From Arthrobacter jiangjiafuii (GTDB lineage Bacteria; Actinomycetota; Actinomycetes; Actinomycetales; Micrococcaceae), in contig NZ_CP076022.1 in the NCBI RefSeq assembly GCF_018622995.1, forward strand, positions 2,914,001 through 2,978,000: a stretch of DNA of 64,000 nucleotides. Direction: 5' to 3'. The position numbers and the translations under genes are program-made. Each line of letters opens with the position of its first letter. The stretch's first letter is position 1. The notes beneath the pieces were generated by a model, which did no database searches, was not told the origin of the DNA, and saw only the letters and a program-made list of their open reading frames with translations. Below, piece by piece: positions 9,545 through 26,263 of this stretch.

Positions 9545-9711
9545 GCCGAGTGTTGTGATCGCGCCCTTTCCCTGCGGCCGAGTGTTGTGATCGCGCCCTT
9601 CCCCCACATCGACTGTTGGCGTCGTGCCGGGATCCAGCAGCGATACGGGCATCACCTCGACAATGGGCGGGCGGCCCAGAGTCATGAGGGCATCATCTCG
9701 ACACTCAGCGG
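9545..9711 (+). repeat. cluster of about 21-nt dispersed intergenic repeats, direct then inverted
   Basis: Between mutT1 and ferritin three direct copies of a motif like GCCGAGTGTTGTGATCGCGC start at 9545, 9577 and 9608 (the last degenerate), spaced 31-32 bases. Two copies follow on the other strand at 9648-9669 and 9688-9711, 40 bases apart, reading GAGTGTCGAGATGATGCCC on the minus strand. The same family occurs around the DUF559 gene near 25-26 kb. No open frame is supported here. Function unknown. Confidence 0.75.
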
Positions 9712-24954: not shown

Positions 24955-25066
24955 GCCGAGTGTCGGGATCGTGCCTCATCCCTTTGCCGAGTGTCGGGAT
25001 CACGCCCACCCCTTCGCCGAGTGTCGGGATCACGCCTCACCCCTTCGCCGAGTGTCGGGATCGTGC
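24955..25066 (+). repeat. four tandem copies of the 21-nt dispersed repeat
   Basis: GCCGAGTGTCGGGATC starts at 24955, 24986, 25016 and 25047, a period of 30-31 bases. The next five bases alternate between GTGCC and ACGCC and each unit is followed by a pyrimidine-rich spacer such as CATCCCTTT. CCGA and TCGG within the motif can pair around GTG. The array lies between the MOSC gene and the DUF559 gene, in a gap of 317 bases that otherwise shows no gene. The same motif occurs near 9.6 kb and, inverted, after the DUF559 gene. Confidence 0.85.
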
Positions 25067-25216
25067 GCGAAAATCCGCTCAGAAACGGCATTTGCTCCAC
25101 AGTCGGCGTCGCCATCTGCCCTGCACTGGCCGCCTGAAACGGGGAAGCTGGCACACCCGTCCACATCACGACGACGACGACCCGTTCCACGTGGGCCGCC
25201 ACGGGATCCTCGGGGA

Positions 25217-26146
25217 ATGCGCCGCGCAACTGAACTTCCTGGCCCGTTGTCCCGACAATCCTTCGCGCTGCCGGAGTCCGATGCTCGGGGCGTATCCCGC
25301 GCAAGGACCCGTGCCCGTGATCTGAGGACCGAAGGCCGTGGGATCAGGTCACCGGTTGGAGTGGAGCAGTCCCTGGTGCAGCGGGTCCGTCCATATCTTG
25401 TCCTGCTGCCGGATGCTGTCATCAGTGATGTGACTGCAGCAAAGATCCATGGGATGCCGTTGCCTTCCCGGGTGAAATCCGATGACCTGCTGCATCTCAC
25501 CCGGCCACCAGGCAGCCCCGCTTCCGAAAGGGCAGGGGTCCACGGCCATCGACGCAAACTCCTGGACGCTGACGTCGTCCAGCTCGAAGATGTCCCCCTC
25601 ACCAGTGTTGCCCGAACGTGGATCGATCTGGCCGGGCGGCTCGACGTCGACAGCATGGTGGCTGCCGCCGACTGGATCGTGAGCCAGCATCATCGGGACT
25701 ATGGCGAGCCACGCTTGGCCCGGCTGCCCCTGGGCAACCTTCAAAGCTATGTAGGTTCGCTTCGGGGAACCCGGTTTCTGCGCCGGATGGAAGAAGCGCT
25801 GGAGCTGACACGGGTGGGGGTGGATTCGCCGCCCGAAACGGCACTCAGGCTCCTGATGCTCCGGGCTGGATTGCCGGAATTTACCGTGAATTGCCGGATT
25901 GAATCGCCCCGCACACATCGCCCTGTCTGGGCTGATCTGGGCAACGGCGACTATCGGGTCTGTGTTGAATACGACGGCCTGCACCATCTGACGCCAGAAC
26001 AACAGGCATCAGATAATGAAAGAGATGCGCTGACGGCGTTGGCCGGCTGGCGGCAGATCAAAGTCAATCGGCTGCAGATGCGGCAGCCGGCAACCGTTCT
26101 GTTTCCGATCCGCACGGCGCTCCGGGACAACGGCTGGCGTGGCTGA
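25217..26146 (+). CDS. DUF559 / PD-(D/E)XK-like endonuclease-domain protein
   Basis: This 309-residue protein resembles a family common in Micrococcales. It has an N-terminal AbiEi-like segment (LPGPLSRQSFALPESDARGV and VISDVTAAKIHGMPLP) and a C-terminal Vsr/DUF559-like nuclease fold. The latter shows the pattern E...D...E-x-D: SPPETALRLLMLRAGLP, PVWADLGNGDYRVCVEYDGLHH, and WRQIKVNRLQM. DNA cleavage is expected from the fold but unproven. The start at ATG 25217 gives the usual N-terminus; a longer open frame runs back through the repeat array. No ribosome binding site is strong. It is flanked on both sides by the same short repeat family. Confidence 0.7.
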   Translation: MRRATELPGPLSRQSFALPESDARGVSRARTRARDLRTEGRGIRSPVGVEQSLVQRVRPYLVLLPDAVISDVTAAKIHGMPLPSRVKSDDLLHLTRPPGSPASERAGVHGHRRKLLDADVVQLEDVPLTSVARTWIDLAGRLDVDSMVAAADWIVSQHHRDYGEPRLARLPLGNLQSYVGSLRGTRFLRRMEEALELTRVGVDSPPETALRLLMLRAGLPEFTVNCRIESPRTHRPVWADLGNGDYRVCVEYDGLHHLTPEQQASDNERDALTALAGWRQIKVNRLQMRQPATVLFPIRTALRDNGWRG

Positions 26147-26169
26147 GGGGTGGCCGGCTGGAGCAGGTG

Positions 26170-26263
26170 ATCGAGTGCTGGGTCCGTGCTGGAATAAATA
26201 CTCCGGTGTCGGGGACGCGCGGGAATTCGGCGCTCCGAGGCGCATCTTCCCGACACTCGGCGG
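26170..26263 (-). repeat. degenerate and inverted copies of the 21-nt repeat after the DUF559 gene
   Basis: Just after the DUF559 stop, two weakened direct copies lie at 26170-26189 and 26202-26220 (32 bases apart, each matching about 14-15 of 20 positions). One good copy on the minus strand follows at 26242-26263, reading CCGCCGAGTGTCGGGAAGATGC. With the array upstream, this brackets the gene. Confidence 0.6.

Follow-up and report, generated by a model that had tools for sequence, protein, structure and literature searches.

A predicted AbiEi-nuclease fusion gene of Arthrobacter jiangjiafuii and its family of short mirrored elements

The window analysed in this study is a stretch of 64,000 nucleotides (nt) of the Arthrobacter jiangjiafuii genome (positions 2914001-2978000 of the 3.59 Mb genome, G000 below). 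It contains a gene for a predicted AbiEi-nuclease fusion protein of 309 amino acids (25217..26146, + strand), which is flanked by an upstream element (24955-25107) and a weaker downstream element (26170-26261), both built of short repeat units in mirrored orientation. Genes of this kind were often bracketed by two elements, and in the families checked tens more intergenic copies were found, usually just behind stop codons. Element number largely followed the presence of the gene. The results are probably explained by a fixed AbiEi-nuclease fusion gene that is accompanied by its own population of short mirrored elements, the protein maintaining or spreading its own element. This gene-and-repeat partnership looks like a new kind, and no description of a pairing between an AbiEi-nuclease gene and palindromes was found in the titles and abstract beginnings of the open-licence literature. 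Gene calls and profiles were home-made throughout.

Structure of the elements and of the fusion protein

The repeat CCGAGTGTCGGGA occurred in four exact copies on the + strand at 24956, 24987, 25017, and 25048 (spacings of 31, 30, and 31) and in one inverted copy behind the gene at 26248. The first-pass annotation had reported four motif copies at 30–31 spacing directly before the gene and a good inverted copy past its stop, and both were recovered here. With at most one mismatch, GAGTGTCGGGA gave 8 matches in the window versus 1.74 ± 1.26 in shuffled sequence (0 of 100 shuffles reached 8), and the 13-mer, likewise with at most one mismatch, gave 41 matches in the whole G000 genome versus 5 for the reversed pattern.

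A profile of the 21-nt unit was built from window-type copies and used to score units in bits. As a background control, 30 kb of the window was scanned on both strands, and no score of 10 bits or more was found there. By this profile, an element consists of 21-nt units with a spacer of mostly 10 nt (a 31-bp grid), a central hinge of 19 nt, and then units of opposite orientation. The plus arm of the upstream element was composed of four direct units at 24955..25067 (+ strand; 24955-24975, 24986-25006, 25016-25036, and 25047-25067, with 31.3, 30.5, 30.5, and 27.6 bits), followed by a 19-nt hinge at 25068..25086, the commonest hinge length, and by a minus arm of one degenerate inverted unit at 25087..25107 (− strand; 16.8 bits). 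Since this unit stands exactly 19 nt past the fourth direct copy, each flank of the gene holds a mirrored element. The downstream element was composed of a weak direct unit at 26170..26190 (+ strand; 12.2 bits), a very weak inner direct unit at 26201..26221 (+ strand; 3.1 bits), a 19-nt hinge at 26222..26240, and a minus arm at 26241..26261 (− strand; 25.5 bits), which holds the inverted copy. The two weak units account for the degenerate direct copies noticed earlier past the stop, and the second of them is the mate of the inverted unit.

Of 18 G000 repeat regions fetched, 14 were arrays and four (L040, L043, L046, and L047) were single matches. A facing unit pair was present at 13 of the 14 array loci outside the window and at both arrays inside it. 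The gap from plus to minus units was most commonly 19 nt in G000 and in two further genomes of the genus, G014 (Arthrobacter sp. ATA002) and G021 (Arthrobacter sp. APC 3897); otherwise it was mostly 50 or 81 nt (19 + 31k), with a few gaps of 20 or 22 nt. One dispersed copy was found in the window at 9545..9709, between a NUDIX/phosphatase gene and a ferritin gene, with three plus units, a 19-nt hinge (9629-9647), and two minus units. At the corresponding site a unit was present in G014, and no unit was found in G004, G011, G007, or G003.

The protein was predicted to have a complete AbiEi-type DNA-binding fold with an N-terminal winged helix (residues 2-199), fused to a Vsr/I-Bth0305I-like nuclease (residues 202-309). 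E207, D240, H257, and D266, residues of catalytic type, were invariant in an alignment of 18 homolog sequences, and all 18 matched the PADLOC AbiEi model. Nucleases of the Vsr and I-Bth0305I type are also called EDxHD nucleases. The earlier label of a DUF559-like endonuclease agrees with the predicted Vsr-like fold of the C-terminal part, but the family name was not confirmed, the protein scoring 13.7–14.2 bits with Pfam DUF559 (cut-off 20.6). With Pfam MTES_1575 it scored 13.5 bits, under the cut-off of 38.2. At the window locus, the immediate neighbours of the gene were MOSC and GT87 genes, and no AbiEii nucleotidyltransferase toxin gene adjoined it.

Bracketing and co-presence in other genomes

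Bracketing was scored by comparing the DNA before a gene with the DNA behind it and taking the best ungapped match. A set of 40 loci was picked among high-scoring homologs (34 from other genera and 6 from the same genus). Their own-flank median was 26, and 26 of the 40 scored at least 20, a threshold chosen after these scores had been seen. Mismatched pairs of flanks never reached 20, neither within the same genome (0/88, maximum 16) nor between genomes (0/200, maximum 18). Among 80 named loci, 77 were usable, L245, L282, and L297 being dropped because of short flanks; 45 of the 77 scored at least 20, versus 6 of 308 mismatched pairs. We take four of these six high pairs, with match lengths of 98–135, to be shared genomic DNA. 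Shifted windows within the same loci reached 20 in 1 of 300 cases. The two sets overlap by at least one gene (L213 = L322). Enrichment of the motif near homolog genes had been set beforehand as a test of the pairing, and it was found in both sets, with controls at 0–2%.

The 45 bracketed loci formed 25 protein clusters at 70% identity, and many of the matched flank segments were palindromes of about 60 nt. In 32 of the 45 loci, the upstream segment ended at a distance of 45–100 nt from the start codon (range 45–271; start codons assigned by rule), and the downstream segment started near the stop codon (−52 to +149). Element likeness was found in 71% of 55 pairs with protein identity of at least 70%, in 3% of 65 pairs at 50–70%, and in a fraction of 0.00 of both 402 and 468 pairs below 50%. 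Ortholog groups have their own palindromes, and element sequence follows ortholog identity. At L219, from another genus, the bracketing elements were detected by the window-type profile. The gene-motif pairing first proposed holds, but in an altered form: the sequence varies by ortholog group, the protein is an AbiEi-nuclease fusion, and only 1 of the 16 G000 arrays read adjoins the gene because the remaining copies are dispersed.

The frequency of the motif in gene-lacking genomes was the other test set beforehand, and the window motif was abundant only in gene-carrying genomes. Among 29 genomes of Arthrobacter, an ortholog (69–71% identity) was found only in G014 and G021, with the same neighbours as in G000, the G021 contig stopping short of GT87. 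With up to three mismatches, GCCGAGTGTCGGGWTNNYGCC gave 87, 72, and 17 matches in G000, G014, and G021 versus 8, 2, and 8 for controls; the other 26 of the 29 genomes gave 3–15 matches versus 3–16 for controls. The exact 13-mer occurred 12 times in G000, 22 times in G014, and 0 or 1 times in other genomes of the genus.

The site between MOSC and GT87 was compared across the genus. Three of the 29 genomes had no MOSC match, and 14-kb regions were taken for 20 of the 25 others; the 18 gene-lacking genomes in which the site was read had no homolog between MOSC and GT87. At the empty site of G001, 11 nt matching the unit were retained. In a tree built from six proteins of the locus, G000 grouped with G004 (support 1.000) and G021 with G001 (0.975, G021 having only about half of the columns), and G014 was placed beside the G003/G001/G021 group (0.933). 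The carriers of the gene are therefore not one clade.

Two further palindrome families, the P and C types, were searched in 21 genomes. With up to one mismatch, the P-type sequence GAGTTTTTGTCCA gave 29–129 arm matches in ten ortholog carriers, with controls at 0–5. Among the non-carriers, G091 (A. ipis) gave 62 matches, G090 gave 13, and eight others gave 1–3. By protein search of the same genomes, full-length P orthologs (71–100%) were found in eleven carriers, and the best homologs elsewhere had 39–50% identity. The P ortholog of A. ipis is truncated (75% over 133 of 284 residues), and the truncated gene (C1:350755-351153) is still bracketed by P elements. The P gene stood at one syntenic site in the 11 species compared. 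The C-type sequence CGAACTGGCAGCTAAT, with up to two mismatches, gave 33–39 matches in 5 of 5 carriers and 0–7 in 13 of the 16 other genomes. The P family largely follows the gene that it flanks, and the C family is consistent with the same.

The match between the two arms was investigated at 24 Paenarthrobacter aurescens TC1 and 26 A. ipis sites among the listed dispersed copies, gene-adjoining sites being excluded. In P. aurescens TC1, with an intact gene, both arms were found in 22 of 24 copies, with a mean of 2.00 mismatches of 23, and the inner arms covaried (186 matches vs 166.5 ± 4.4 shuffled, p ≤ 0.0001). In A. ipis, with the truncated gene, both arms were found in 19 of 26 copies with a mean of 4.79 mismatches, and no covariation was detected (116 matches vs 110.8 ± 7.6, p = 0.27). 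Arm mismatches differed between the two (Mann-Whitney p = 0.0008). Two P. aurescens copies formed near-perfect predicted hairpins (z −13.8 and −17.5).

The genomic position of the copies was determined with the home-made gene caller. Of 20 P. aurescens copies, 7 lay in convergent gaps, 10 in tandem gaps, none in divergent gaps, and 3 in unclear gaps; 14 of the 17 classified copies lay within 15 nt of a called stop codon. The 15 G000 copies comprised 8 convergent, 7 tandem, and 0 divergent positions. Window gaps longer than 60 nt, taken as the comparison set, comprised 4 convergent, 18 tandem, and 8 divergent gaps. A position just behind stops fits a 3′-end function or spread into tolerated sites.

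Proposed mechanism and competing explanations

In the proposed mechanism, the two inverted units of about 21 nt in an element would be bound jointly by the AbiEi part, much as AbiEi and Rv2827c bind their operators, and each protein would recognise the palindrome of its own group. The upstream element would be the operator of the gene, at which the protein would repress itself. Pairing of the protein would bring two Vsr-like nuclease domains to the hinge, where it would cut or nick the DNA. The subsequent repair or copying would allow the element to spread and would preserve the match between its arms, and the gene itself would remain in place, as RAYT genes do. The inverted pair of about 21-nt units at a steady distance upstream, together with the predicted AbiEi fold of the product, fits AbiEi-type recognition. 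In PMC7319586, AbiEi is described as bending the DNA and as binding, with positive cooperativity, a pair of 23-bp inverted repeats separated by 3 bp, and Rv2827c as binding two repeat pairs with gaps of 13 bp. The unit geometry here is compatible with AbiEi-like binding of inverted repeats in the protein's own promoter. The present system differs from AbiEi of Streptococcus agalactiae and from Rv2827c in its extra Vsr-like nuclease domain, its 19-nt hinge, its downstream and dispersed copies, and the lack of an AbiEii partner at the window locus.

Several results weigh against this explanation. No insertion with a target-site duplication was seen at the one site compared. The arm contrast between intact and truncated genes comes from one genome each, and the share of two-armed copies did not differ significantly between P. 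aurescens and A. ipis (Fisher p = 0.14). Pooled window-type arms did not covary (478 matches vs 482 ± 8 shuffled, p = 0.72), and the window elements folded weakly or not at all (z −0.6, +0.75, and −2.9, the first stretch being shifted by 1 nt); the keeping of a hairpin is therefore not general. Gene-lacking G003, G004, and G019 gave 13, 15, and 12 GCCGAGTGTCGGGWTNNYGCC matches versus 5, 7, and 4 for controls, a 2–3-fold difference. G021 has the gene and yet few recognisable element copies. Three of eight compared G014 element sites matched G000 array sites, so some copies are probably old. Not scored as bracketed were 32 of the 77 and 14 of the 40 homologs. Of the 32, at least 10 belong to a paralog group found across the genus, and the G014 ortholog of the window gene scored 11, unbracketed by this measure, with its elements visible by profile. 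In the P family, G085 has an ortholog but only 3 GAGTTTTTGTCCA matches, its gene flanks reading GAGTTTTTGG, and G090 has its 13 matches without a P ortholog. C-type matches numbered 10 in G084, 14 in G088, and 16 in G099, none of which is a listed carrier. All 16 matches in G099 were of one variant, and three of these bracket its own homolog. The moderate counts in G090 (P) and in G084 and G088 (C) are possibly relics of lost genes.

An unlikely but serious alternative is that the palindromes do not move but are sites that the host keeps for an AbiEi-type regulator with a nuclease (hairpins of a 3′-end or terminator-like kind, or sites that organise the chromosome), the flanking pair being an operator and an ordinary site. 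The autoregulation of AbiEi proteins at inverted repeats, as described in PMC7319586, agrees with this, as does the location of the elements behind genes, with no divergent position among the P. aurescens and G000 copies. However, an operator needs no downstream copy, and a sequence that varies by ortholog group, with copy numbers mostly at background where the gene is absent, suits enzyme-dependent repeats better.

It is rather improbable that the gene and its flanks are a small transposon with palindromic ends, in which the nuclease would serve as transposase and the dispersed elements would be solo ends or resemble miniature inverted-repeat transposable elements. In favour of such a transposon, the gene has similar ends on both sides at a steady position, and many copies occur without the gene. 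Compared with transposons of the insertion-sequence type, however, the gene kept a single syntenic site within each of two groups (11 P-group species; G000, G014, and G021), a dispersed copy is a whole mirrored element and not a pair of distant ends, and the one site compared showed no target-site duplication.

A defence or addiction device, in which the fusion protein would cut DNA conditionally and the palindromes would be restraining decoys or self-marks, is very improbable. The PADLOC matches point in that direction, and titration would be compatible with a nuclease that has many private sites, but the gene is absent from close relatives and stands between MOSC and GT87 with no AbiEii toxin. 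Hardly any credence is given to repeats moved by an unrelated enzyme, with the gene merely in a hot spot: the single gene-adjoining array among 16, seven further multi-match sites, and an integrase-core gene between two units in G014 would suit this, but 25 protein clusters show bracketing, with sequences that largely differ, and gene and element are present together in three families.

The favoured reading, of a protein that maintains or spreads its own element, brings the system close to REPINs (doublets of repetitive extragenic palindromic (REP) sequences) and their REP-associated tyrosine transposases (RAYTs). That a PD-(D/E)XK-like gene flanked by its own motif resembles REP/REPIN-RAYT pairs, with a different protein family, had been suggested earlier and is supported by the bracketing and co-presence. 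As described in PMC3116915, REPIN-RAYT systems comprise two short repeats in mirrored orientation around a spacer, numerous extragenic copies, and an immobile single-copy gene beside its own repeat type. Inverted repeat pairs with a steady spacer, dispersed between genes, and a fixed gene flanked by its own repeats were likewise found here. In contrast to RAYTs, which are Y1/HUH transposases, the protein combines an AbiEi fold with a Vsr-like nuclease. Arm covariation, a REPIN-RAYT trait, was found in P. aurescens but not in A. ipis or in the window family. The Y1 transposase PF01797 was found in 0 of the 29 genus genomes and in 5 of 14 control genomes including E. coli, the P- and C-family genomes not being searched. 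The system appears to work like REPIN-RAYT, with private repeats, a fixed gene, and dispersed doublets, but the lack of a Y1 transposase in the genus counts against membership. The palindromic repeats and transposase genes with flanking inverted repeats described for CGTC-tagged REPs and TIRtrons (PMC3733652) are also similar; however, the CGTC REPs are reported without a dedicated transposase, and TIRtrons have tyrosine transposases. The window protein differs from Vsr and I-Bth0305I-type nucleases in its fusion to AbiEi and in its MOSC and GT87 neighbours.

On balance, we lean slightly towards a second, independently evolved class of bacterial mini-elements maintained by an enzyme. In this class, AbiEi operators would have become small mobile or self-maintaining palindromes, each with its own AbiEi-Vsr-like nuclease, in many private pairs across Micrococcales and often several per genome. 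If so, a lifestyle like that of REPIN-RAYT, in which a tame enzyme lives alongside its own population of repeats, also arose with an unrelated DNA-cutting enzyme. A class of palindromes seen in these genomes would then be accounted for, and poorly annotated AbiEi-nuclease genes would gain a testable role. Because ortholog groups have their own sequences, they would form a natural set of protein-DNA specificity pairs. A route from toxin-antitoxin operator to dispersed element is also suggested.

Additional homologs and array variants

Two more homologs of the window protein (45% and 30% identity) were found in G000 at C1:1084216 and 1132618, without detected window-type units. The former is a member of a paralog group spread across the genus; bracketing units of their own were found at a few members of this group, such as L071.

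The G014 arrays (L088-L100 and L157-L183) contained unit subtypes with differing middle blocks that were uniform inside each array, as if local duplication enlarged the arrays. Some G014 units were 41 nt apart instead of 31, equal to one extra helical turn. At the NUDIX-ferritin site of G014, an open reading frame with integrase-core and HTH_38 domains (L390:7810-9021), which we take to be IS30-like, lay between two window-type units.

In some P-group species (L264:4961-6469; also L250, L272, and L280), extra DNA was found behind the nuclease gene, with a dicarboxylate symporter gene in L264. In P. aurescens, the nuclease gene was directly followed by one P arm, with the opposite arm a further 1.7 kb away. 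Recombination between elements may therefore have removed or trapped genes at these loci.
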